A DNA stretch of 64,000 nt from Clavelina lepadiformis (Eukaryota > Chordata > Ascidiacea > Aplousobranchia > Clavelinidae), in the NCBI RefSeq assembly GCF_947623445.1, contig NC_135245.1, forward strand, positions 18,545,501-18,609,500, given 5' to 3'. The notes under the pieces were generated by a model. That model was not told where the DNA came from. It did not search any database and was given only the letters and a program-made list of their open reading frames with translations. The translations under genes were made by a program, and so were the position numbers. Positions 4,331 to 54,176 of the stretch are shown piece after piece; the stretch's first letter is position 1; every line of letters starts with the position of its first letter.

Positions 4331-7300
4331 TCCATGTATTTCATTTTTTGATTGATTGATATTTTGCCCAGTTATAGTGGCTTATGTCAGGCCAGGGAGG
4401 ATTTAACTTGATTGCGGAGGTAATAATTGATCGATGTGTTAATGCTTATTATTTCGTTATATTATATATCAACACTATGTATGTATGTCACTTTTGTGAT
4501 GCCAAATGCAGCATGCGAGTACCGTAGGACAGAAAAGAGAGGTTTCTGTTGCAGAAGTGGCACAATTACAGGAAAAGGTTAAAAATGTATAATGATTTAA
4601 CGCTAGATTCGCTGTGGTAGCCTATGACAGTAACAGTAAGCAGCATACGGCAAGAATTAGACTTTAAATGAATTTCTGAAATCTTTTGTGAAAGGATCCA
4701 CAGACTACTAAAATTCATTTTGGAGATCCTTGACCTAAAAAGATGAGATACCAGTGTTTTAGGTCTTGTTTAAATTTCAACGTCGTGCAAAGGTGAAAGG
4801 ACGCTGCATAGATTTGAAATGTTTACATCGAAAATCCGACCCGCTGAATATTTCGATGTTGCCAGTGAGGCTGTTACTCATATGAAGTCAAACACACCGC
4901 GACTTAGCATCCGTGCTGTTTATGGCATTTAGTAACCTTTTTGCTTTTTAACTTCTACGGGGTATAGGGTATATGCAATACTGAATTATCTTATCAGCAG
5001 GAGATTAACGACTAAAGTAGAAACAGGCATTTTTCGTTTAATCAGAGTCATTAAGTAAAAGAAAGTCAGGTTAATGGGTCACAAATCGGCCGTTAGCTTA
5101 TCGGACATTCCACAACCGAGCCGTAGATGCTTGATAAGGCGTCATTGTACAGATTCTTGGCTTTCCGAGTAGAACAACGTGCCGGCGCCACTTCCGTTAA
5201 ATGCCGAGGGGAACGAATGCGTGTGCGCGCCTGTATGCTAACGTCATATTAACGAGGCTATGACTAACTATGATAATGATGATTACGACCCACGACGCTC
5301 TCCTACCGAACTGCTGGACGGCGGTGTACAGCGCATAATATTTTCGCGGACATTTACCATAGAAATTTGCGCGACGAAGCACCGTAAATAACATTCAAGG
5401 TGCAGCGAGTTTTCATTTTCCACAGAAATTTAACAGCTTGGTAATTTCAACGTTTTATCGTTGCTCTACATCGAGGCGCGTGACACGAGTCAGTTATGAC
5501 ATTTGGCTGGTTTGCGCCATAATTAAACACAACTTCTCAATTTGCATTCTATCCTCTCATAATCTGCATAATTAGACTACTCTATATCCGGTCGCTCGTC
5601 ACTACCGGTCGTAGAGTTTTCATTATTGCACATTTTTTCGAAACGAAACCAGAGAACGCGCATTTTATTGTATTTATTAAAAATATTGGAAAATAGTCCC
5701 CAATACCGAACAGCAAAGAATCAATACAAATTAAAAATCGCCGTCTCTCGAGTGTAAAATGAAATGGTATGCTTAATTTCAACAACGAGGCCATGCAACG
5801 TAGCATCACGTTTAGCGAGTTATGGTACTCGTGTATAAGGCAAAAATCGGACACTACAAATCCGGCAACCATTAACCTTTTCTCTTAGTTGTTGTCTACG
5901 TTTTATATACTTCGCGTTTTACAAGCAAGCCATGTTTGATGCATTTCTTTTAAAGACGCAACGTTGTTGACAAACTCCCAAGCTATAAAGGACGCGCGTT
6001 TTTACATCAATAACAGAACAGTATCTTCACCTGAATAAGTTCAGAATGGTCTGAATAACACAATCAAAACAAGTTTTTTTCATGCTTAAATATTCCACCT
6101 GATGATGGTTTTATTCCAAGATTTTTTTTGCTTTTGATTCCTGTTGATCTTATTTCTTCAATGATATTAATATCGATGCCTCCATAAAAAACATTCAACT
6201 TTCTTTCTGTGAAACATGACGGTGTAGAGCTGATTGTATTGAAGTCTTACGACTGATTGGAATTCATGCCCTGAAAGTGGTAAAGTTTTCTTTAGTTTTA
6301 ACCATTGCTTTGCTTTCTGCAGATTGTGATTTAGAGTGCTAGGGCTTTCGACTAAAGCTTTTGCGCAGGATATGATAAATTATTGCTAGTCATAAAGGAT
6401 TACTCGGTGGACGTCGAGTTTCAAACGTTGTGATAGACCAGCCGGGCCGTAGCAAGAGAACTATTAACCCCGACAAACGAAATCGACAAGGACGGTATCT
6501 AGGCGTTGTATTACCTTCGGCTGAAATCTGCTCACTATTTCATAACGTTTCGGCCCGTTATGGAGCCATAGCTTTTGACATTGAAAAAACAAACTTCTGA
6601 ATTTGTCAGCCGAACGTGCCATGCTGTTATCATGGAAAGCAGAGGAAACGAGGCTCGTATTGAATGGAAGTAAGAAAATTATTTCGTGCTATTTTAAGAA
6701 CTAAAACATGTGACTGCGTTGCAGCAACTTGTAATCAGTTCACTTGTTTGATAGTTGTCACTAGATGTGTACATCGTATGTGTATTATTTAGTCCGGTCA
6801 TTCGTATGTCTACAAAAATTATGTATTTTCAATTTGTTGGTTCAAATTATTAGGAACTTACAATTCAGGTTTTGTAACAATTTGTTTGAGTAGTTTCCGC
6901 TTAAAAAGCTGTAATTTTGGTATGATTTCGTCATATATATATGCCAGGAATTTTGTCCAGAAGTTCGGTGTGGTCTCATGTGTAAAGTATTTTTTAGAAA
7001 TGTTTTAGTTGAAAAAGTAATAATTAGAAGATTAAAATACCAGAATTCACAATAAAATATTGCGGTATGTTATCTACATCTTAAGTATATTTTCAGCTCA
7101 ACTTCGCCAATGAGAAAAAGAATAACTTGAATTTAAACATATTACCCTTCTGTCAAGTCAATAATGCAGTAATATAGCAAATTCCACTGGTACCGCCGCC
7201 AGCTTGATCAAATAAGTTCGTCAAACGGCGCGGCAGGTTTTTTGCTTGTCCATATTCTGCTGGTATAGTCCTAAATTAAACATTAGTTATTACGATGTCA

Positions 7301-36853: not shown

Positions 36854-36994
36854 AGCAATATTATTGACAAAAGGTGCGTTTGGATAATATTAGTTGGTTT
36901 TTAGTTTATTTAGTCTCTTATGTAATTACTTTTCAAACGCAGGAGTTTGTGTTGCTGTGGATATATTTAATCTAGTATATCTCTTAGTTTTAAG

Positions 36995-38333
36995 ATGGAA
37001 ACAGGGATTTTGGTTCCAGTTATACTTTTTATCATCTTTTCGGTCGGAGTGCCTGGAAATGCTATTGTCCTGTATGTCCTCGTTCAACAAAGGCGCACTT
37101 GGACAGTGTCCACTCATTATCTTATCAACTTGGTCATTGCCGATCTTCTTTTTGTTCTGACGACGCCTCTCTGGGGTCACTACTACCTGAGCAAGTTTGA
37201 TTGGGTTTTCGGTGCCGGGTTATGCAAATTGTCTGCCGCCATAACCAGTATCAACATGTATGGGAGTGTATTCTTTTTAACTGCTATGGCTGTCGACCGC
37301 TGGATGGCGGTGGTGCATGCGATTGATTGGGCCCACTACCGTAAACACCAGTGGGCGCGCTGGGCCTGCTTTGCAATCTGGTGCGCAGCTGTTGTTCTTT
37401 CAATCCCAAGATTTCTTTATCAAATCTTGAGAGTAGTACCTGTGCAGGCACCGACCTTTAACAAAAACTATTCCACTCCTTTGTTATTGTCCAATACTTT
37501 CGGTGTTAACGGAAGTTCCATCGATGCAACAAGCTTCGGTGTGAACCCCACTCAGAAACAAGATGCCGAGTCGGTAATTAGAACTTACTGTACATTTTAC
37601 ATTCCGAGTGGAGAAACCAAAGCGTTAAAAGCTGGTTTTATTGAACTCTTACACGCTTTAATTGGGTTTGTCATTCCCATGGTCATAATATGCTTTTGTT
37701 ACGCAAGAATCCTCATTACTGTAAAATCAAAACTGATTAGCAAAAATGTGAAGAAAGATAGGATTTCTAAGCTGGCAGCTCTCATCATAATGGCCTTCTT
37801 TATATGTTGGCTCCCGTCTCAAGTGATGAAGATTTATTCGGCGTTGGGTGGTTGGTGGAGAGCGTTTTCTTTTGATAAAACCACATACCATATAGTTTAC
37901 CCATACACGCTCTGTCTGGCTTGGATAAACAGTTGTATAAATCCGCTCATCTATGTGTTAACGACCAAAACTTTTCATGATTTTGTGAACAAACACTGCT
38001 GCACAGGGTGCAACAAATCTGCTCGAAAATACGTGCTAAGATGGACCCGTGTGGGGCGCCAGGAAACAATCAATTCAGAAGAAGGGGGCAATAACCAGCA
38101 AGGAACACATCTTGTTGAAATACACACTGTGAGCGAAGTCTCATTATTGCCTAAAAGTTTTTTAAATGTAACTATGGCAACATTTGTTATGTAACAAATT
38201 GCCAATTAAAGAAGTTTTCTTTATGGCGAGTAATGAATCCGGGATTTTGTTTCAGAAAGAAGAAGTCAGCAAAAACGTCTCAGACGAAAGATTTGAGAAA
38301 AAGAAGAGAGACGAAAGCACTGCCAGGCTTTGA
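36995..38333 (+). CDS. Class A GPCR, RXFP3/RXFP4 (relaxin-3 receptor)-like, paralogue 1
   Basis: Seven-transmembrane peptide-type receptor. Exon 1 is 36995-38128 (378 codons). A strong donor (ACT|GTGAGC) and acceptor (TTTTGTTTCAG) add a 25-residue tail exon, 38256-38333, giving 403 residues; without splicing the frame runs to 38194 (399). Markers: GN in TM1, D50 in TM2, Cys77, then CKLSAAITSINMYGSVFFLT with DRW (101-103), FFICWLPSQ in TM6 and CLAWINSCINPLIY in TM7. TM3, TM6 and TM7 resemble RXFP3 (SMNMYASVFFLTAMS, CWLPNQ, CLAHSNSCLNP), but angiotensin/apelin-type receptors are an alternative. TM1 starts about five residues after the Met, so a first exon may be missing: TTAGTTTTAAG just before the ATG could be an acceptor, and an in-frame TAA lies at 36968. 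The long second extracellular loop has NYS and NGS sequons. Confidence 0.85.
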
Positions 38334-39007: not shown

Positions 39008-39949
39008 GCTTAGATAGTTCAACTTCAAGCATAAATACGGTTTTATAATGGCAGAAGTGTTCCCAGTTATTTCCTGACATTAAAAGAAATCTGCCACTAA
39101 AAGAAATTGTGGCAAATTAAAAACTTGAAGCGACTTTTTCCGTAACACCTGCTAATGAGACCGATTGATATGAAGAGGTGGTTAGGGCACAAACAGCCTC
39201 TTCATCAGCTTCATCCAGTAAAAGAACCTAACTTTATAGCTATGTTATGTAACAATGTAAAAACTCTATATAACTGTCCGTGCCCAGGGTCTGATGTCAC
39301 TTGTCACTTTACCCCTGAGCTAGCTCTCTGGAACCTGGAAGAATCATCGCCGATTTGTAAGGTTATGACAAATTAGTTTTCGTTTGTGTATTACTTGTGT
39401 GAAGTATTACACATCAAACATATTTGTCATAATGACCGCGTATGCTGGCGGTAATTGTTACAATATGAGCGAGGACGATTGATGGTTGATGACTTGTTTT
39501 ACTTCTGACTCGATGGTATGAGTTCTCATTTCTCAAACGGCGTGACTATGCTGTTAGTTGCTTAATTCTGTTTATACAAATTACTAAACTATAAAGTTCC
39601 CATTTTATTTATTATCAGACACAAAGGCTTCCACCTTCGGGCAAAGCTTACTGAATGTTACATTGCGCAGTAGTAACCAGTGAAATCGATCACGTAAAAA
39701 AGGGGGTCATTGCAAAACAACACAAGAGTAATTATAGGCACACCAGTTCAAGCGAGGTAATTTATCTGACGTCATTACGCAGTCTTAAAAAGTGAGTGAT
39801 AAAAGTAACAACTCATGACTCGTGACGTAACCGTCACAAGGTTGTGATACCATACCATTCTACCTTGCAATATCATTGGGCTTGCACATTTTTGTCATTT
39901 TTGTGATTTCAAATGGCAAAAAATAATTTTTTGCCATTTCACAGTACAC

Positions 39950-40010
39950 CTGAAAAAGCAAGCTTATGCTTGCGAAAGCTCGTGTCGAAAAATATAAAGT
40001 TAACCTTAAG
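39950..40010 (+). repeat. Hairpin motif resembling the end region of Penelope-type elements
   Basis: CACCTGAAAAAG + GCAAGC-TTAT-GCTTGC hairpin + GAAAGCTCGTGTCGAAA has the layout CUGA..stem..GAAA known from hammerhead-ribozyme cores in Penelope-like retroelements and related repeat ends. The core is not canonical (CUGAAAA rather than CUGAUGA), so it is probably not an active ribozyme. No reverse-transcriptase frame is nearby. Confidence 0.35.
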
Positions 40011-40453
40011 AATGCCAAAATATATCCTGTTTCTTATTTTACTTTAAAATTTGGTTAACACGGTTCAGACAACATCAACTTGTGTAATGGATTAAGATTT
40101 TATGCACATGTGATTATAGCAATAAGCCAAAATTAGAGGTTATACCATACGAGAGGCAAACCTTCATAACGAAATGGTAACGCCATGGTCATACCACAGA
40201 ATACCAACAACAAGATTATTGTATAAAATTTATACAATCTCTAAATAATCTGCAGATCTTGTCGTCAGATTTCTATGGTCCTACGTATTTTTATTATTTA
40301 GAGAAATCCCCAACAAGTACAGCCTAGTATCGGATAAACAAACATCACCGTAATTTCGCTTGCGCTTTCACTGACTGTGTCATGTCAGAATGTGTTGTGC
40401 TTGTCCAGGCTAAAATCGTTTTCAAAAGTATGCGATAGGCCGAGTGTTGACTA

Positions 40454-43400
40454 ATGATGAATATCAATATTGACGAAATTGCTGAGCCAGATGGGGATCC
40501 ACCAGTCAGACGAAGACAACCAGACGGCAATCCACCCATCAGACCTGTTGGGCCTAGACAAGTAGGCCTAGATGAGGCTGCTGCTAGACCCCAAGAAGCT
40601 GAGCGGAGAGATGCTGCCAACATTGACCTGTGGAATATGCGAATGAACTTTGAGGGAAAGCCAGCTGTTATAGCTACTGGTGGGCTGGTGGCTGTGGGCG
40701 CTTATGTGGTGATAAGAATCGTAAATAATCCTTCGTCACTGGGCAGAGTTTTCAATTATTTTGAACGCTCTTGTCATTGTGTCCTTCAGCGAATTGGAGC
40801 AGGGTCTTTAATGATACAACTGGTAACGGAGGGTGAAGATGCCCAGAAAGAGTTTCTAGACGCATATTTTTCTAACAAAATGTTGTCAGCCATTAGAGAG
40901 ATATTTGAGCAGGAGTTAGATCTCACAGTTGGTGATTTAACACTTGAACGAGTTGGGAAAGTGGAAGGTAGCAGACAGGATTTTGACGAAATCATGGAAG
41001 AAGCAAAACTTAATCTCAAAAACTCCAGTTACTTGCAAACAAAATCTGAGGTAAGTGCCTATTTACCTAATTTGAAAAAAAATTTACATATATCTCAGAA
41101 TGGGAAGTTTGGTATTTTTGGGTGAGAAATCCCTCGCACAACAAGGTGAAACAATAGCAATTATATTTCCTACACAATTAGCTTAAGTTTCTTGCGAACT
41201 TGGAAAACTTTTCAATCTTGTTCATATCTGGGCTACGATATGATACTGCAGTCTGTGCAGTCAGTACCAGTAATAAGTTTTTTGAAGTGTTTATTTCACC
41301 ATATAGCTTATAGGCCCAACAGCCTGTTGTTAAAGATAAGTGTTTAGGTGAATGTGTGTCCAAAAATGTGTTGGTGTTAGATTTAGATTAGAAGATAGAT
41401 TTAGGTTACTATGTTTTAACATTTAAGTTAGGTTAACAAGGAACTGTGAAAAATACCCTTGAATGCACAATTTTTTCTAATAAAATAGTGGCAGCCTTAG
41501 TTATCTGATAGATCTAGTTTTATACAATTTGCAAAGGTGAGGGCTATCGTATATGCTACTGAACGAGGAATCATATTATTGTTTGAGTTTTTTTATGATT
41601 TATGTCTATGTTTATTTATTTTGTGTTTCTATTGAAGTTTCGTTTACCTTAAACATAGGTAAATTAGGCATTTAGCAAAACATTTCTTTTGTTTTTTTAT
41701 ATAACTGATATAGCAAATTCGTTTTGTTGAAAACGTTGTTCTGGTTTGTCTTAACTTTTGAAGCTCAAATAACTTTCACGACTGAATTTCATTGCAAGCA
41801 TTGCAATGAAACTTGCCCATTATTTTTTTAGATTGTACTAGCTCAGCATCAAATCTTGGAGGACGAGTCACGAATCTTGGCTCAAACAATACCGCAAAAG
41901 ACCGACAAGCAAAGCACATTGGACACTATAAAGTACATGGCCTGTAGATGTGTACAAAATCATACTTAACTTAGCAATTATTTCATTTTCTTGTCTTTGG
42001 TTTCTATATATACGTACAATATACATGATGGAAATATCCTTTGCATCTTACACATGCATTCGTACTAACTACTCATTTATTACTTTTTCTACAGAAAGTT
42101 ACAGGAGGACTGGAAAGCTAAACAGGTACAACTATTAATGCTATTGTTGCAATGTTTATCTTATTGTGTTAATTTGAAATCAAAGCTAAACTATGTATGC
42201 CGTATTATATATACGTTATTTACTTGATTTCACAACCGTGGCTCATAAAGTTTTTTGTATTACCATTTTCGCAGCTTTCATACGGGCGACTTACACTTGA
42301 GGGGGGCTTACATTTTCTTAATCAAACCAAACTTTTACCTATTTGCGATATTGTTACGGAGAATAGAGAATATGCTGTATAGTGAAAAAACTTACTGTTC
42401 CTTATGTAACCTGTTTTTGATAGTGTAGTAGACGTTAGAAAGTTTATTGCAGAGGTTTTCTGTAGCTTATGTTGCTGTGTCGCTTGCTGTGCCATTACAT
42501 GTGACTTAGAATCAGCTTATATATATTAATTTCTTAGCATGTATAAATGCGGCTTACCATCGATGGGGGGCTTACATTCAAGTAATTACGGTATAATGTA
42601 AGAACTTCCTGCAGTACGGTATTACATCAAACAACCTATGCACAGCTGCTTAACTTCCAAATTATTTCCCTTTACTGTTATGTGCTGATGGTGTAAGGTT
42701 TTGGATGCACTTTTACACCACCGATGCTTTTCAAACACAAGCTGTTTGATAAGTATATAAAAGTATTTCAAAAAAGATTAGTGTTAGGGGTTTGTATTGT
42801 TCAAAATTTTTATGCCAATATTTTTCGTTGCACTACAAATTAATACTGACTTCATATATCGGTTATCGGTTTCTTTGATTACTAAATAATCGGTATCGGC
42901 TCTGAAAAAAAACCATATCGGTCGATCTCTAATTTAAATTGAGCTAGGAAAATTTAGGCTAGTAGGCGCTAGTGACTAAATTTTTTGCTAACCATTTTCC
43001 GAAAGCGTACATGAAGGAGAAAATGTGGAGCAAATTCTTTTAGTTAGTCATCTGCTCGAGGAAGAGAGCGGCTCCGGTAATCACTTGAGAGAAATCTTTA
43101 ATAGTTTGTAAACTTTGTAGTCTAGCATGGCTAATACAATGCTAATATAACATTTTATATCACACTTCTTAGGAATAAACAGTCATTTTTCCTGCAATTA
43201 ACAATGTATTGGTAATTTAGTATAAACTTAAGTATTATGTCAATGAACAGTAATAGTATTTGAGTAATTGTTATGAGTTACAAAGGGCTATTTATTTTGC
43301 AGTTATTTGCTGTTTACAATGCCCATGAATTTTTGACAAGCCCTGACAACATTGACTTGATAGAACGTGGCAGTTTTTCAATTTTACGAAATTGTTTTCA

Positions 43401-46400
43401 TAAAAAACTGGGTAAAGTTGCTGTGGAATGTGTAACAAATAAGTACGCACTTAATTCCTTAAGGTAAGTCACTGCATGTTGCATGTTTTTCAAAAACTTA
43501 CTATCACAAGAAAGATAAATGCCATTTTATCTCTAATGTAAGAATTCTATTGTCCGTTTTTTTGCTTATCCCCTCAGATTTCTAAAAACGCTGTCCCAAC
43601 TAGATCGGGGTAGCACTGTAAAACTAAAACCTCACTTAATTTATGTTTAATTTTGCATTAATCTACATTTACGTTAAGTTTTAATTTTATTTTTTCTTCT
43701 AAAGTTTAATTTTCTAAAAACCAGCAATAGTGATTCCATTGTGGTGTTTATATTAATAATGCAATCATTTGACATTTAGCGATGCTAAAAAAGTTGAGAT
43801 GGCGCGGGACTTAAGTGGCCTTCGTCACAGAAACATTGTGAGAATCCTTGGAATCACGAGGTGGCAAGATTCTGTCGGAATCATTTGGGAGTTGGTAGAA
43901 GGAGGCTCCTTACATGATCTTCTCATGTCAGATGCTGTGGAGGACATACCTTGGGCTTCTCGTTTTCGTATTGTGAAAGAAATGTTTCACGGTTTAGTTT
44001 ATTTACATCAATACCATTTGGCTGAATCTGCATTCCATGGCGATTTGAAGCCATCAAACATTCTTCTCACAAGAAATCTTCTGGTCAAAATAGCAAGTCC
44101 GAGCGCCATTTATTCAATAATCAATAGGAAAATTGATAGTACTTCTCATACCCCTTTATATGCTCCTCCAGAATTTCTTCAAAATCTTACTTCAAAGAAA
44201 TATTCTGCTTATGACATATACAGGTTATTCTCAATTTCAATTTGATTCCAATTTACACAAGAACAATTTTCCTGGCCTTGTTTGATCATTCTGACCTTTG
44301 CTATGTGTTGCAGCATGGGTGTCATTTTGTATGATGTCATCACTCGTCATCGAGCATTCAGTGGTGTTGATCTTTTCTTGGTATTAGAACTGGTAAAGCA
44401 CCGGGGGCAGAAACCAGATATGAAATTTGTATCTCGAGTGGAAGGAGAGCTTTCTAGTCAACCAGACAATCTTGCAATCATGAATCTATTGAAGAATGTC
44501 ATGGAGCTTTGCTGGAGTTTTGATCCAAAAGATCGACCTGATGCACCAACAGGTATATTTGCTTCCTGGTTTAAAATTGAATTTTCCATTTCAGCCCTTT
44601 TTTGTGTTTATGATATTTTTAATACTAACTTTTTGTATTGTAGTTTAATTTTTTGTTCGTTTAATTACTTTCATATAGTCTTGAACATGTTGAACAAAGA
44701 GTTTTTGAAAGTGAATAAACAACAGCTGGCTCTGGAAGCAAATTCATTGAAAGAGCAAATGAGTCATTACCTTAACGAAGAAGTTTCAAAAGTTGACAAA
44801 ATTCCCTTGGATAACTTTAGGCCCCCGTTTGAAAAAGATGTTCATGTTATTGGCGACAGACCAGACCAGCTCCAAAACCAGACCATACCTTCTGCAGACC
44901 AGCAGACAGAAGGTAAAACGATATATTTATGCAAGTTGCTGTTGACATGTTTCTAGTTTATGTAAAAGAGTTGCGCTTGTTGCTATGAATAAAATGTCAA
45001 GTGAAGCAGAGCGTAATTCAACGGCATGGATAACTTACAAAACTATATGTGATGTTACATAAATAATCAGTATGTAAACACATCTATTTTGTGATATATG
45101 TGATACGATAACAACTATGTAAAATACAATGCAGTCCACTGTTTAGTTATCTAACCATCACCACTTTCATGGCACTCTGCATAAAGTTGCCTAATATTTT
45201 TCCATGTTAGTTATTTTAACAACATTTATCAACTATGTTTATTGGACATTGTCTAGCTCTATTATTGGATCATAATGTTAGTAGTCAAACATGTTGTTTT
45301 AGCTCCATTGCCTTCTTCTGCAACTACAGTGACCGAGATTGATCTGGAAGATTTATTACTTCCAAAACACTCCTCCTCTGATTTTATGACAAGCAGAGAT
45401 GAAAGTTATCTTCTTGGTCGCGGAGGTTTTGGAACTGTGGTGAGATGCCAACTTTCTCATCTTGGCTCTGTTGCAGCAAAGTGTTTCAATTTCAGTGATG
45501 TAGGGAAAGGTTTAAAAAGTTCTATTAAGGATGGGTATGAATGAAATTGGTGTTTATTAATTTATCTTATTAATCATTTCCATGCTATAATTTTTAACTG
45601 AATGTTATAGTTACGTGGAAATGCCTTTGTTATAGACTTTATCCTGTTTATTGTCTATTCCCAGATTCTTGCATGAAGTGGAAGTTATAAGGAGACTTGA
45701 TCACAAGCATATTGTCAAAGTTCATGGATTAACAAGTTGGTCAAGTTATGCGGCAATCGTCATGGAACTGGCAGCCAGAGGAAATCTTTTTGATCTAATT
45801 TTAAGCAAAAACATCAAAGTATTGCCGTGGGAATTAAGACTTCGGATTCTTCAGCAAGTGGCTTCTGCGTTGAATTACCTGCACCATTATGATTCAGAAA
45901 TGACCATTATCCACGGTGATGTAAAGACGGCAAATGTTCTTCTGAGTCAGAATTTCGAGCCGAAACTTACGGATTTTGGTTCAGCCACCATCTTTTCTGC
46001 AACTGATGGCGTGTTGTCTTCATCAAAGCAATTCACTCTATTGTACTCGGCCCCAGAATTTCTGCTGTCACCAGATAAAAGTAAAACAACCAAGATGGAT
46101 GTCTACAGGTTTTCGCTGTTGTATTTTCGTTTTGAATTACCAAATATGCTGTTTATTTATTTTTTTGCGGTCAGGCTGTATTGTTTTTGATTTAGATTAT
46201 TATGAGAATATGTTTTGCTAATTTACACCTAACTATGTTATTCAGCTTTTCTATACTGGGCTATGAAGTCATAACCAGAAGATTGGCATTTTTTGCCGAG
46301 GCTAAGCCGAATCACGTTATTGCTGCACAAATAAAAGCAACTGGATTAAAACCAGAATCCAAACATCTTCATGAAATTGATGATGCTTTAGCCAGTCAGG

Positions 46401-48772
46401 TTGTTGACCGTCATATTTTCCATGTGCTCAAAGATGTAGTTGAAGTTTGCTGGGACACAAACCCAGATGAACGACCTGATATTACATCTGGTAATATTTG
46501 TACATCTTGCACTGTCATGTAAAGACTCTGAATTCTAAACACGCTACAGACAAAACTGCAACTGCAAGTTAAACTTTCTTTTTTCAAAACTTGAACAACT
46601 AGATTTTCAATTTATTCCAACGATTTAGTGATGGTTGTGAGAAGTACAGACATGACCTTTTGCTTTTGTGTAGTTTACAACTGGTTGACTGCTGAGCTTG
46701 ACAATGTGGACCAAAGTAAGCTGGAACGGCAAATTCAAATGCTCACTCGGGGGCTTGATGTTACATGTGACAAGCAGAAGCAGGTTAAAATGCTACCCTT
46801 GGATGAATGGCGACCTGAAATGCCCACAACCACAGATGTACATGATAGCTGTGAGGACACTTCTAGTTTGTCATAATTGTTACTACGTTGTAGTGCATGA
46901 CCACATTTATTTCACCTGCCTTCACAACAAGTCCTGAGTTCTTTTGTTTTAGTTGTGTTAACATGAAATCTATTTCGACCTTTAGATGATGGTGGTGAAA
47001 CTAATACTGACTTTGTCATTGCGGAAAGTACATCGAGTCAGCCCAGTGTGTTTTCCAGAAAGCATGATGCTGTCACTCAAAAATCACAATTGAACATTCT
47101 ACTTGTTGGTGATGAAGGGGTTGGTAAAAGCTTATGTGCTGCAAGGTTGTGTGGAATCGACGGTGACACAACTGCATCAAAACCAGGTAAAGGTTAAATG
47201 GAAATAATAGTGCAGTGATAAATATCATAAATGGTTCGAATATTGAAGGAATTATTGTGTCATATCTCATTCCCATTCAGGCATTCATGTGAGTGTGCAA
47301 ATTGTGTATTTGATTTTGAAGTTTTAGGAATTTAATTTAATTAATTTTAATTATTTTTATTTGTATTATTTTATATTTATATTGTTTTTATGTTATTTGA
47401 TTTGTAATAGTTTGATTTATTTTCATAGTGTTAGAAGTCAAGCAAGCATCTGTGGAAACAAACATGGACAAAAGCAAAGTTGATCTGCTCATTTGGTATG
47501 AATTTCTCACAACTTATGCCTTTTGTGTTGACCTCTAACTAAAATGCAGCAAAACATGATCAACACCTTGTTGTGATGCTTTGCATCTTATTTCAGGGAC
47601 TTGGCTGGTAGTGATGTGTCAAAAACTATCATATCAAATTTACCAAAGTTTGATGGATTGGTTGCAGTCTATGACATCACAAATGCAAAGAGCTTCAACA
47701 ATATCCCATATTGGTTGCGTCTTACTGGAAACGTGAGTTGATAAAATCAAATAGCAACAACAATAAGATGTATGTTTGGTTTCGATCTACTAGGACCATC
47801 TGTTATTTGAAAGCAAAACTAGACACTTTTAGCAAATTTTGTCCTATAAAAACGTACTGATACTAGACAAAAATGTACTTGGGCTTTAGTTAGGAAGTTT
47901 TTGATATTCTCCATATATTAAGTGTTATCATCGCACAAATAGCAATATTCCTTGTATAACATTACACTGCTACTTTTTGTCATCGATATTTCAATCATTT
48001 AACCTTCAACTAAATTTTTTCACTCACAGCTTTTCGATGAACAAATGTTTGGCTTGTTGCTAGGCAACAAATGTGACCTCGATGATGAGAGAATGATCAA
48101 GGAGGAGGAGGGAGAAGAGGTTGATGCTGTAACGTGGTTTTTATAAATTTAATTGACGCGTGTATGCGAAAGATTTATTACGCTGTCAACCAGCTACGTT
48201 TTAAGTAATTTAAAAGCAGTGTTCTCTAATTTTCAAGCAATATATGGCAACAGTTAAGTCAACAGTTGTTATTTCGGAGCATTATTAGACAGTAGTGTAG
48301 TGGTTTAAGAGTTATGTGAATGAAAGTTGAAAATGATTGGTAACATGAAGAGTGGAACTGTTATCAGAAGCATTGATACCTTTGCTAAGAACAATCAAAG
48401 TCCATCCAGTCGCTTTTGGCATCATTTCTTCCATATTTAAAACATATTGTCGCGTTTTAGCTTGCGCAGTTGAACGGCTTACAGTTCTTTGAAACAAGCG
48501 CCAAGGAAGCAATAAAAATCAACTTCGCTCTCATTCAACTTGTGTCTAAGATCTTTCTGGAAGGGGCTTCCAAGGTAAGAATAAACTTACCGAGTTAAAA
48601 ACACCGCTTGCTTAAAGGTTTTTAACATTTCTGGTGCATTTTACAGGTCGGATCTACTTCTAATAAATCGAAGGATATTGGAAAAGGGCGTGGAATAAAA
48701 CAGCCGGCTGACAAACCACTGCAGAACTTAGCAACTACTCAAAACTTTTCACCCTTGAAATTGCCCGATTAG
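40454..48772 (+). CDS. TRADD-N-like / pseudokinase / IRAK-like kinase / Rab-like GTPase fusion protein
   Basis: Seventeen exons with matching phases give 3,630 nt, 1,209 residues: 40454-41050, 41832-41932, 42095-42125, 43303-43463, 43780-44223, 44314-44552, 44679-44912, 45303-45534, 45665-46108, 46246-46490, 46674-46850, 46986-47186, 47429-47495, 47597-47732, 48030-48119, 48470-48574, 48647-48772. Order: Pro/Arg-rich start with a doubled PDGxPP motif; hydrophobic helix about 70-90; TRADD-N-like domain about 108-185 (GSLMIQLVTEG, FLDAYFSNKMLSAI); helical linker; pseudokinase about 255-520 (Glu285 in place of the VAIK Lys; HGDLKPSN; no DFG); helical spacer; kinase about 630-920 (GRGGFGTV 641, Lys662, HGDVKTAN 763, DFG 783, APEF) closest to IRAK1/RIPK; Rab-like GTPase about 1003-1170 (GDEGVGKS 1010, WDLAGSD 1058, NKCDL 1116, ETSAK 1141); tail ending KLPD. 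Likely innate-immune or death-receptor-type signalling; inference. The main alternative is two or three neighbouring genes. Confidence 0.82.
41290..41500 (+). repeat. Dispersed repeat family R1, copy 3 (intronic)
   Basis: Lies in the first intron of the fusion gene, same strand as copies 1 and 2. Shared blocks: CAACAGCCTGTTGTTAAAGA, TATGTTTTAACATTTAAGTT + AGGTTAACAA, AACTGTGAAAAA, and ACAATTTTTTCTAATAAAAT + AGTGGCAGC. Confidence 0.55.
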
Positions 48773-49973
48773 TGGCAAAATGAACCACCTGTAACTCTTC
48801 ATTTTATGCGACTAAAACACCTCTCTGCCAAAGAAAGATTTGAGCTTATGGAAACCACTGGTTGTAAAAATAATTTTGTCTTATAGAAATTTGTTTGCTG
48901 TAAACCTTCCACCTTTTCTTATTTTTTACTTCTATGCTTGTTTGTTACTTGTTCGCGTTTTTATTCATTAAAGCACTTACATTTATTCATGTCAGTATTC
49001 TTCCAATTTATATAGGTTCATATCATGTGCATTTTATTGCCTTCAAGTTCAATATTGTGGCACTAGATCTGTCAATATGATGTTTATTATTTCGTCCACG
49101 AGCGTTTAATCAGTTGGCATTTTTTTAATATTTGTGATTTTAAAAATCGGGTATTATTGAATCTGATTTTTGTTTAGTAAATATTTAGTTTTTTACCAAA
49201 GCGATTGTTGCGAATTAGACGTGCTATATTAGTTTGCTTTACAATAAATAGGCTGTGTGAATGAAAGGGTTAAATTCTCACAGGAAAGCGAGTGTTACTT
49301 TTCAGTTATTAGGCCAGACAAGTGCTATGAAATATATTTTATGTCGACGATAAGCGAATCAACGTTACAGACAAACTTTAATATATGCAAACATAGGAAT
49401 TCTGCCGGTACCAAGCCAATTGTGACTTCATAAGCAAACTGATGCGAAAAACGAAGCCGTCATAGACGAATTCTACTGTATTAACCTACACAAATGCTTA
49501 GTATATTTATTATTTACCTTACCTCTAATTTGGGCTTATAATACCTTTAACCCTAGCTTATGCAATTTTTGATCTTTTCAAGAAAATTGCGAAACCGTTT
49601 TACAATAAAACGCATAAATAAACAAAACAATAATATCAAACCGTAACAATAATATCACAATTATGAAAGGATCAGCTTCAGTTTGACTTTGTGCTGACGG
49701 ACGCAATTCACAAAATGTTCGACATGACATAATTTCTTACGTTGTATGTTCACTATTTGAATAACCATAATATTAAACCAAAGACAACACAAGTATCACA
49801 ACCGCTCATTAGAAAAGCCTCATTGTCCTGTTTCCGCCACCGCCTGTATGTCTCTGGTGACTCTAACACAAGCAGGCATTCGAAAGCGAAAAGAAACACA
49901 CGATCGCCGAGTTCGGTACCACCGCAGGGTTTGGGTGAAATCGACGCTTGAAGTTTCATATTACATATATACA
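48773..49973. other. Intergenic region between the fusion gene and GPCR 2
   Basis: Convergent 3' regions. A TTCATTAAAGCAC stretch near 48,964 may serve as a weak polyadenylation site for the fusion gene. Nothing else is supported. Confidence 0.4.
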
Positions 49974-51538
49974 TCACACCATTGTGGCCTCATTGCAGGC
50001 AACACAGGAGTCGATTTCCCCGTTGGCGGGAGTCGAAAGCGCACCTCCCGGAAACGAAGACTCGGCGTTCAGCTCCGAGTTCATCTTCCCCAAACCCTGC
50101 ATAACTGCGGGGCAGGAGTAGTAAGAAAAAGTCTGTTCCTCCATGCCCGTGGTGGGAACGGACTCTCCCGGATGGGGATCCCCCTCGTGTAAATCCTGTG
50201 AATGAGTGGAAAGCGTTAAATAAAAAACACATTCATGATGAAGTGTGCAAGCTTACAGGCCATCTTATTCAAGCCTAGATACTGCAGTATCTTTTGTAAA
50301 CGAACTAATGAAGGTTTCACTTTTACGCTTAAAAGAATTAAAGTTAAGATATTTCAGGACGCAGAAACAAAAATTAAACAAAGAATTGTTTTCACCTTCG
50401 CAATATGAACCTGAACAGGAGGTGAGTAGCGGACGATGACGCCACGCTTGGCTTGTGGCGTGGCTGTTATCTTGTCTTCTTTGTGTTGGCCTGGCACGCT
50501 GAGTGTCATCCGGTAGGGTCTGACGGATTTGTCAGAACTGCAGATGTCTTTCACATTCTCCTGGAAGTTGGTGGTTGTAAAAGCGTAAACAAAGGGATTG
50601 ATGCAGCTGTTAGCCCAGGCTAGGCAGAGAGCGTACGGGTAGACTGCAGAGAAGAACGGTTCCGAAAAGTAGAATGCATGCCACCATCCGGACACGGCTG
50701 AGTACAAGTTCATCATCTGAGCGGGCAGCCAACAGATGAAGAAAGCGATGATTACAAACGCAGCGAGTTTGGCGATCCTGTCTTTGCTCACGCGTCGGCT
50801 TATCACCTTCTTTTTCACGGTGATCACGATTTGAACGTAGCATACCGATATCACGATCATGGGGATCACGAAACCAATCATGGCGTTTATAAATTGAATG
50901 AAACCCATCGTGGTTTGTTTGTTGAGATCAGTGGTGGGTATGAACAATATGCACTGAGTGATGTTAGATTGATCGTTTCTTTTCAGAGCAGAGTTAAAAA
51001 TCGAGGCTGCGGTTGGAGCCCCGGGTGTAACAACTCCGTCTGATTCTTCAGTTGCATTTACAGTGATGGCCGCCTCGCCGCCGGGATTAAGTTGTGGAAC
51101 TCTCAACACTTGGTACAAGAACCGCGGCAGTGCCAGTAAAAGAGCCAGGCACCAGATTCCACAGCTGACCCATCGCGCCACCGTGCGGTTGCGAAATCGA
51201 GAGACTTGCGTGGCGTGCACTACCGCCAGCCAGCGGTCCATGCTCATAGCAACCAAAAAGAAAATGCTCGCGTACATGTTGATGGACGTCAGGGAGCCAG
51301 AGAGTTTACACATGCCCAGTCCAAACCACCAGTCAAATTTGTTGAGGTAATAATGACCCCAGAAAGGTGTGGTGCAGAGAAAAAGGGTGTCCGCCACAGC
51401 CAAGTTGAACAGATACGTTGTCGTTGGTGACCAAGAACTTATTTGACGTAACAATACGAAGAGAACCAAAGAATTCCCGATAATTCCCAAGAAAAATAAA
51501 ATAAATATAAAAACGGCAATGACATAATTTGTGATCAT
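49974..51538 (-). CDS. Class A GPCR, RXFP3/RXFP4-like, paralogue 2, with spliced PDZ-ligand tail
   Basis: The receptor body lies on the minus strand, 51538-50411 (376 codons from the first ATG, MITNYVIAVFIFILFFLG). A phase-0 intron (donor CAG|GTTCAT, acceptor CTTTCCACTCATTCACAG) adds exon 50195-49974 (73 residues, DLHEGDPHPGESVPTTGMEE... ending NEATMV), 449 residues in all. Unspliced, the frame stops at 50354. Motifs: NLAVADTLF in TM2, TPFWGHYYLNKFDWWFG, CKLSGSLTSINMYASIFFLV, DRW, FFICWLPAQ, CLAWANSCINPFVY. The second extracellular loop holds NATEES (Asn-Ala-Thr sequon). The last three residues T-M-V form a class I PDZ ligand. It is most like paralogue 1, which also has a phase-0 intron in its tail. 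The extracellular N-terminus is almost absent, and an in-frame TAA sits a few codons upstream, so a missing 5' exon is possible. Confidence 0.85.
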
Positions 51539-54176
51539 TTTTACCGCTGGCTTCACAGTTCTTTAAACAACAAACTCAAGTGATAATAGACCTGTAATGC
51601 AACATATACCAAAATTAAAACTTTCTCCACGTTTCTTTAGTTACTAATAATAATAGGAAAAAGTGAGGCAATAATTTGGTTGTAAACTGCAGCAAATTCT
51701 GCTTATAAAGTCGTAATCTTTTACGGTAAGTGGTTAGGTTATATCGTATCCTGAAGGGTATACAGCAATTTTTTGCAACACCATTCATCGCCCTGTTTGA
51801 TGCGTTTAGGGCAGATGACAAGGTTCTTTACACTTCGCTGATGGCTAATAACGCTGACGGTGCATGTTACAAATATGAATTTGCTGAATGTGTCATTCAA
51901 TGTAAAACTGACTTCCAGACCTACGCTAACTATGGAAGACTGGTTCATCACTCATTGGCATAAATTATGTCGTAATAACTCTCATAAAATACCTTAATTT
52001 TGTTCATATTTCAACCTTTGCAGTTTCGTTGATGCTTTAGGCTCTGAAATTTGATATAGCCTGAAGTTACTCTTCTGATTGATTCTGACAACGTCGTCTA
52101 CCCGTCGTCAACACTACCTAGGCCAATTGAGGTGTGTTGTCTGCTGGCTTGACGCCATAGTGTTCGTAGCGGCCACTTTAAAATATGATATTTGACCCTC
52201 ATATTGTTCATAAACGTTCTTGCATTGTTTCGAAAGGCGACAAAAACGTGACATACGTTGGTGGCATATGTTGAAGCCCGAATAACTTTCTTTAAGCCTT
52301 GCAGCAAACCGAAAAATTAAACTGTACTGCATACTGAGGCCTCATCGAGCGTTCTTTCAAAAGTGCATGGCTTGAATTCGCATTCATTGTCCTTAAATTA
52401 AAAAGGACATCGACCTCCATCGATTTGGTCATTCTCGAACATTTTTTGAAATTGATTTTTTGGGCAAATGAAATGATTTCTACTCATTTGAACTCTTACA
52501 CTGTCAGACTAAAAGTAAAAATCGATGCAGGCATAAAATTACAATTTCAACACAACCTGGAACAGACGTTTATGACCTACTTAAACTCTGCAGTTTGTTC
52601 ACTGTTAAAGGTAATTAGGCATCTTGCCAATAGCTATTGCTGACAGAACGCTTTTATTTTATAACCGCAAGTTCAGGTAAGTTTAGGCAATAAAATAACT
52701 CCGGTTCGTGGTCACAGACGCAATACATTGGTGTTGAATTATCAGTAACATAACTTGCCAGGTGGTCACTGAGAACTAGGCTAACATTTCCAAGTGATTG
52801 GGCAATATTTTGCGGATAACGTCCAAGACTCACCGGAAATTTAACACCTCATCTGCCAAACTATGATCGAAATGTTCCAAGCTCAGCTGTATGCTAACAA
52901 CTGCTTATTTGCAAGACTATGCCTATACAGGTTTGAGAATAAATATTTTATATCGTACATTTTTATTATGCTGTTTGTATGTTTTTCTTCTGTCACCCAA
53001 TATTGTTTAAACATATTTAGCAGAATATTAAATTCTTATAATAAAAAATAGGGTTTATAGTTCTTTTAAGTTATTTAAGTTAGGTCTGCTTGATCTGATG
53101 CTGGACAATATACTGGAACTGCGCAGTGTATAACTAATATGACACAGATTCCTTTTATATATAGGTTGAAATTACAAACAACACTCGATCCGGTATTACT
53201 ACGTCGATGCATACGTCAAATTCCATCTATTTTAACTGCAACAATGCCATTTTCTCCTAGTATCCAATCTTTGAGGTCAATAACAATAGCTTGCCTATGT
53301 TGTGCACCTTGCAACTGCCTCATGAACTTGTGTGACTGCAGAAAATATCTTCATGACATCACAACAATAACAACATGGTGACGTGCGTTGCGCAATCGAT
53401 CCAAGGGGCTATTTAAATCGCTGTAGGTAATTAACCTTGCAACTGACGAAACAGGCTGCTTATAGCCTAGAACGGAACCGAGCAAGCGCAAAAATACGAA
53501 CTAGAAATGAAGAGTTTGCTGTTTCTAAATAGACAATCATAAATCTTGTTGACATTTATTGCCATCTTCCCCATCTGCTACTGTCACACAACGTCATGAA
53601 GTTTCGCTTAACTTCCGTAACAATACCAAGCTGACAACTGAATCTATTACGTCATAATAAAACATCATGACTATGCAATGCTTCTCTCAACTTGACTCCT
53701 CTGGACAATCATTAATAAAATATATTAGCCTAATATTAACGCCACTGGCGATATACCGGTATCTCTTCTGTACAGTCTTTTCAACGCGTCTTGCGACTCG
53801 GCTTCTATATACATAATCGCATTTCCTGTAACATGTAATCTGAATCACGAAGAAAGTATGTATCGCCTTTTGTCGGAATAATGTTACGTCATAATTAATG
53901 CGTCTTGCGCGCTGACCCTATAACTTAATGCAGTATTTACACCACAGTTTGTTGTCTTTATGTCTGTTAATTATTATTAATAGATGGAGCGGAATAGGCC
54001 ATTCCAGAAGACGGGCCAAACATTGATTGCTTCTGGCTTTAAAGGGCGATTGCGGTTGAATATGCTTTTCCAAAAGGCCAAGCTGACCTCTTATGACCCG
54101 AAGCATTACCACCCGCAAGTAATTTAGAAAACCGCTTAAGCCTTTTGGTCAACAAATGATTAATTAGTGCTATAGG

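Follow-up and report, generated by a model that had tools for sequence, protein, structure and literature searches.

A putative single gene joining a TRADD-N-like domain, tandem RIPK-type kinases and a Rab-like GTPase in the ascidian Clavelina lepadiformis

A 64,000-nucleotide stretch of Clavelina lepadiformis chromosome 6 (C6:18545501-18609500, hereafter the window, in whose own numbering positions are given unless a contig is named) contains a gene of 17 exons at 40454-48772 that we read as coding for a single protein, in which a TRADD-N-like domain is followed by an inactive RIPK-like kinase (K1), a predicted active RIPK/IRAK-like kinase (K2) and a C-terminal Rab8/10-like GTPase. We put the probability of this reading at about 0.6. 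The kinase module belongs to a large family in the same genome (209 Mb searched in 95 contigs, with loci labelled so that C6:17.80M is contig C6 at 17.80 Mb), whose members appear to be followed by different partner domains. Lineage-specific, domain-shuffled signalling proteins are already known as a broader kind; neither a kinase-Rab fusion nor this tunicate kinase family was recognised in searches of the open-licence literature.

Gene model and domain content

Rebuilding the spliced frame from the window gives a coding sequence of 3,648 nt, or 1,215 residues, open from ATG 40454, which has an in-frame stop immediately upstream, to the TAG in exon 17. All 16 introns have GT-AG borders, their phases match and no internal stop interrupts the frame, which reproduces the 17-exon structure given in a preliminary description of this DNA; the exon total stated there was 3,630 nt, 18 nt fewer. 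The exons are richer in GC than the introns (41.4% vs 31.1%). Splice sites were scored with a generic matrix and ranked against local GT or AG dinucleotides; on this scale 14 of the 16 donors reach at least the 85th percentile and each of the 16 acceptors at least the 73rd.

On the spliced protein Pfam reports two Pkinase stretches (1.7e-70), with K1 spanning about residues 256-575 and K2 about residues 634-959. The two are 32% identical over 338 aligned columns, shared tail included, and agree in the succession of their exon phases, with comparable exon sizes (444 and 239/245 nt). K1 carries E285 at the position of the VAIK lysine and SPS (403-405) in place of DFG, with HGD kept; of the catalytic lysine, the HRD-type aspartate and the DFG aspartate it retains only D385, and judged by these residues it is a pseudokinase. 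K2 has all three intact (K662, D765 and D783) and is predicted to be active. Placement by nearest solved structures in sequence, as opposed to a kinome tree, puts RIPK3 (2.1e-24), RIPK4 and RIPK1 at the top for K1, with RIPK2 also present, and a plant lectin receptor kinase, BAK1, RIPK2, RIPK3 and IRAK4 nearest to K2. The preliminary description had likewise proposed a pseudokinase and then an intact kinase of this type, its label "IRAK-like" covering just part of this list. Pfam reported neither a death domain nor a CARD or RHIM on the spliced protein.

The C-terminal GTPase that the same description had called Rab-like matches Pfam Ras at 6.4e-27 (residues 1006-1167) and Roc at 4.3e-11, and its best PDB matches are Rab10 (6e-29) and Rab8A (4.5e-24), in agreement with that assignment. 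It has a P-loop (1010-1017), DxxG (1059-1062), NKxD (1116-1119) and SAK (1149-1151); the glutamine of DxxGQ is replaced by S1063, switch I is degenerate with no threonine recognisable in the alignment, and no prenylation cysteine occurs within the last 20 residues. Because of S1063 and the missing C-terminal cysteine, we regard the domain as Rab-like and not as a membrane-cycling Rab. T1068, nine residues past the DxxG aspartate, aligns with a Rab10 threonine that we take to be the LRRK2 phosphorylation site, the switch-II threonine of Rab8 and Rab10.

At the other end of the protein, a ferredoxin-like domain occupies about residues 80-195 and includes a GS pair (117-118) that is invariant in all six aligned N-domains. 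A single-sequence AlphaFold model of residues 62-199 (mean predicted local distance difference test score 64.5) has the order b-a-b-b-a-a-b-a and puts GS in the turn between strands 2 and 3; the TRADD-N hallmark, as described in the main text of Kaur et al. 2021 (PMC8195603), combines an RRM-like fold with a b2-b3 turn that contains a tiny residue and a serine. Among six trimmed relatives, TRADD-like_N appeared in three rows (best E 0.14) and TRADD_N in one (E 0.1), all below threshold, and THOC7 reached 0.052 in the same search, above the TRADD models; two of the relatives taken at greater length, and the domain at C5:6.69M, gave no TRADD match at E ≤ 1. We therefore use "TRADD-N-like" as a plausible but unproven label. 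The preliminary description had named the domain TRADD-N-like and suggested profile searches and a structure prediction of residues 100-190: the modelled fold and its GS turn make the name plausible, the Pkinase and Ras profiles matched, and TRADD_N left the window protein unmatched, its weak sub-threshold matches being confined to relatives. N-domain matches occur at 8-11 other genome places, mostly on C9. As further kinase fusions these relatives were discarded, with all eight 9.9-kb loci inspected (L021-L028) free of kinase or Ras matches at E 0.1; open reading frames (ORFs) further along them are leucine-rich by eye, and one searched in Pfam gave no match.

A kinase family with changing partner domains

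K2 matches at least 116 places in the genome, 109 of those listed remaining once the six exons in the window and one second exon elsewhere are set aside. Eight loci were read, C6:17.80M picked for nearby Ras exons, C5:6.69M for a nearby N-domain and the other six as high-scoring, intron-containing places; because they were chosen, they are not representative and give no rate over the whole family. The modules described behind each kinase lie on its own strand, and in five of the eight loci, each taken as a putative single gene, a partner domain exceeds the Pfam cut-off. Behind the kinase we found Kelch at C3:22.48M (2.7e-9, 1.3e-8 and 1.9e-4), SH3 at C3:1.40M (5.4e-5, with SH2 below the cut-off at 0.016), TPR-like and Kelch-like matches, both below the cut-off, at C6:6.02M (TPR_12, 0.005) and C1:24.43M (0.0095), and no Pfam match in the one ORF searched at C8:4.60M. 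Two further loci carry small GTPases. At C3:23.15M a TIR domain (2.2e-15) is followed by Rho-like exons (Ras, 3.8e-7 and 0.0015), whose presumed P-loop exon has no Pfam match and which are interrupted by a long unrelated ORF (6081-7133, within L052 3463-8854). At C6:17.80M two Macro domains (7.4e-13 and 2.7e-6) precede Rab-like exons (8.1e-10 and 8.5e-5) with a P-loop exon below the cut-off (0.0026), and 5.7 kb beyond them the Rab exons are repeated in a second, near-identical set (L045-L047, C6:17794800-17809000). Finally, C5:6.69M (L048, C5:6688001-6698000) has an N-domain in front of a RIPK-like kinase with HGN for HGD and, behind it, a weak SH3 match (0.071) and a tyrosine kinase (4.7e-19) in two tyrosine-kinase-like stretches, the first without an HRD motif by eye. 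The kinase module thus seems to be constant and the partners behind it to differ from locus to locus, a pattern that goes beyond the preliminary description and is not visible from the window alone.

The proximity of partner exons to family kinases was assessed by distance shuffles that used 109 of the 116 kinase places, 118 of 156 Ras places (those set aside being additional exons of genes already counted, or unlisted matches), all 77 TIR places, all 27 Macro places and 11 N-domain places; Macro exons gave P 0.017. In a tree of 22 kinase cores (one row, L033, being only a 21-residue piece), K1 groups with C6:17.80M and C6:6.02M (support 0.74) and with C3:23.15M (0.91), and K2 with intronless copies and C5:6.69M (0.69). 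A simple internal duplication is one possible origin of K1 and K2, which share exon lengths and phases yet stand apart in this tree.

At C2:3310226-3379179 nine intronless members of the kinase family form an array with spacings of about 5-11 kb, the eight compared being nearly identical. TIR exons form large arrays at C4:0.70-3.42M (29 of the 77 TIR places) and C5:22.5-23.9M; four family kinases lie on the same strand among them, and Kelch exons share the C5 region.

Module joins and competing gene models

Past the tail motif, the best donor is in phase 1 in all nine tails compared (K1 and K2 of the window and seven loci, C5:6.69M having no tail motif), which are not independent trials because they share descent. 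As scored from the DNA, they show a spliced phase-1 continuation past the tail to be a family trait. The window join 46850|46986 has the same phase, K2 is flanked by phase-1 introns on both sides in the manner of a shuffled module, and the donor used is the sole positive-scoring one past its tail. For eight of the nine tails the best-scoring acceptor ahead of the next module is in phase 1 as well, the next exon at the seven outside loci having been picked by eye (the one searched had no Pfam match of its own), and at C3:23.15M and C6:17.80M, too, a GTPase stands behind a family kinase on its strand. With phase-1 donors in nine of nine tails and no methionine in exon 12, the first Rab exon, the kinase-Rab join is well supported, and we consider it highly probable that the two reside in one predicted protein. 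The alternative of two genes, in which the kinase gene would end at 46874-46876 and a separate Rab-like gene would start from exon 12, draws on the weak donor of exon 11 (score 0.4) and on the read-through of that exon, which adds eight residues before meeting its stop 24 nt on. Exon 12 would then need a start that it lacks, the Rab frame being closed upstream by a stop at 46964; the intervening 135 nt contain no poly(A) hexamer (a window scan found neither AATAAA nor ATTAAA between 46345 and 48511), and the phase-1 continuation is common to all nine tails, so that separate genes appear quite improbable.

The join between N-domain and kinase is weaker. A GT is kept at the matching place after the N-domain exon in all eight rows compared (the window and seven relatives, with hand-chosen peptide ends), so this exon is probably spliced onward; the acceptor of exon 4 is in the right frame and, because exons 2 and 3 total 132 nt, exon 1 could also be joined in frame directly to exon 4. 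Furthermore, C5:6.69M pairs an N-domain with a family kinase that lacks a methionine before the glycine loop in its first exon, and the adjacency of the two domains gave P 0.007 in the distance shuffle. The kept donor of exon 1, the acceptor of exon 4 and the pair at C5:6.69M also tell against a kinase-first gene, a rather unlikely model in which a pseudokinase-kinase-Rab protein would start at ATG 43273 and exons 1-3 would belong to a small gene of their own or form an alternative 5' end. In its favour, that ATG yields MSYKGLFILQLFAVYNAHEF, resembling MCLKNDGLFTKDLLNYNAQEF at C6:17.80M, and a methionine stands shortly ahead of the start motif in several relatives; the longest intron (1,177 nt) precedes exon 4, no homology backs exons 2 and 3, and AATAAA occurs at 41479 and 43174. 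Our probability of about 0.6 refers to the full predicted chain, N-domain included, as one protein.

Several further observations weigh against that single-protein reading. No TRADD profile matched the first 249 residues at E ≤ 1. At C6:17.80M the next module has its best acceptor in phase 2, and by distance alone Ras (P 0.16) and TIR exons (P 0.20) stand no closer to family kinases than chance allows. The exon model itself has weak points: the donors of exons 9 and 15 are poor (63rd and 71st percentile of local GT), an acceptor at 45330 outscores the one used for exon 8 in the same phase, and exons 2, 3 and 17 have splice signals and frame alone in their favour. The degenerate switch regions could, together with the dead first kinase, be a sign of a decaying gene or an assembly artefact with no working product; we hold this to be very improbable, as seventeen exons stay open in frame, K2 keeps its catalytic residues and the assembly article (PMC10884593) gives a quality value (QV) of 67.4 for kaClaLepa1.1, built from HiFi reads.

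Table 1. Features of the putative fusion gene and its surroundings, in window coordinates
Feature	Position	Strand	Remark
Exon 1: N-terminal region and TRADD-N-like ferredoxin-fold domain, residues 1-199	40454..41050	+	
Exon 2: linker	41832..41932	+	splice signals and frame only
Exon 3: linker of 31 nt	42095..42125	+	splice signals and frame only
Alternative in-frame ATG, kinase-first protein	43273..43275	+	resembles N-terminus of relative at C6:17.80M
Exons 4-7: RIPK-like pseudokinase K1 and tail PLDNFRPPF	43303..44912	+	43303-43463, 43780-44223, 44314-44552, 44679-44912
Exons 8-11: intact RIPK/IRAK-like kinase K2 and tail PLDEWRPEM	45303..46850	+	45303-45534, 45665-46108, 46246-46490, 46674-46850
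Phase-1 intron between kinase tail and GTPase, 135 nt	46851..46985	+	
Exons 12-16: Rab8/10-like GTPase with P-loop, DxxG, NKxD, SAK	46986..48574	+	46986-47186, 47429-47495, 47597-47732, 48030-48128, 48461-48574
Exon 17: C-terminal tail, stop TAG 48770-48772	48647..48772	+	splice signal and frame only
ATTAAA, possible poly(A) signal 3' of stop	48967..48972	+	

The gene is flanked by ORFs of about 400 residues that look like seven-helix receptors by eye (36971-38194 on the plus strand and 50354-51562 on the minus strand). A repeat just 5' of it (39907-40047) recurs, reversed, on C2 (L028, about 5068-5238), both copies translating to FLPFHSTPE..LCLRKLV.KNIKLTLR, and a Macro domain exon lies at C6:18526708-18526944, about 19 kb ahead of the window start.

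Relation to known systems and proposed mechanism

ROCO proteins such as LRRK2, and DAPK1, likewise combine a kinase and a Ras-like GTPase on one chain, and the Roc model does match the window protein. ROCO proteins have Roc followed by COR, with the kinase, if present, C-terminal; here the GTPase is C-terminal to the kinase and fits Ras/Rab better than Roc, and no COR domain is among the Pfam matches of the spliced protein, so that the preliminary description was right to call the order unlike ROCO. RIPK1-4, which by sequence head the solved structures nearest to K1, and IRAK4, which with RIPK2 and RIPK3 is among the best matches of K2, differ from the window protein in its tandem kinases, the first one dead, and in the Rab-like GTPase behind them. 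Rab8 and Rab10, nearest to the GTPase, differ from it in its S1063, degenerate switch I, missing C-terminal cysteine and fusion to a kinase. Comparable in evolutionary pattern are the domain-shuffled metazoan TRADD-N proteins, for which the main text of Kaur et al. 2021 (PMC8195603) describes lineage-specific expansion with changing C-terminal partners, among them a protein kinase in the sponge Amphimedon and Macro, TPR and GTPase domains in other animals. According to that text, however, the constant part is the Death-like/TRADD-N unit and the GTPases are of AIG and GBP types, whereas the constant part of the Clavelina family is the kinase module and its GTPases are Rab- or Rho-like; the words "Ciona" and "urochordate" are absent from the article's main text.

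What the DNA shows is the reading frame, the domain identities, the catalytic residues kept and lost, the family and the junction pattern; a single transcript and the activity, pathway and regulation outlined next are our inference. The N-domain may recruit or cluster the protein, by analogy with TRADD-N binding TRAF2; K1 would gate K2 in cis, and K2 would phosphorylate downstream proteins. The Rab-like domain, which lacks a prenylation cysteine, a DxxGQ glutamine and a recognisable switch-I threonine, might act as a slow or locked nucleotide switch or as a docking surface, and could perhaps be a cis substrate of its own kinase at T1068. By analogy with the RIPK relatives, a role in innate immunity or cell death is conceivable, as in the signalling hub that the preliminary description proposed.

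At the level of the family, each module would comprise a start motif, the kinase, a helical linker and a PL.EF..PF-type tail, followed by a phase-1 intron and a gene-specific partner. We tentatively propose, at somewhat less than even odds, a RIPK-like repertoire whose C-terminal halves are swapped via this one conserved phase-1 intron, the partners exchanged being a second kinase, Kelch, SH3, TIR, Macro and TPR-like domains. Small GTPases would have been captured behind such kinases on three or more occasions (Rab; Macro then Rab; TIR then Rho), and the window gene would encode a self-contained pseudokinase-kinase-Rab chain, its kinase maybe acting on its own Rab switch-II threonine.

If correct, these proposals would mean that an invertebrate closely related to vertebrates joins a RIPK-type kinase and a Rab-like GTPase on one chain, in an order unlike the ROCO one. 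A kinase that stays the same while the partners behind one intron phase change would be a concrete, testable case of animal signalling rewired by exon-module exchange, and the exchange pattern could be tested with public RNA-seq of the species, such as the poly(A) run ERR10908613 named in the assembly article (PMC10884593). Should the kinase phosphorylate its own Rab-like domain, the protein would represent the LRRK2-Rab relation in fused form.

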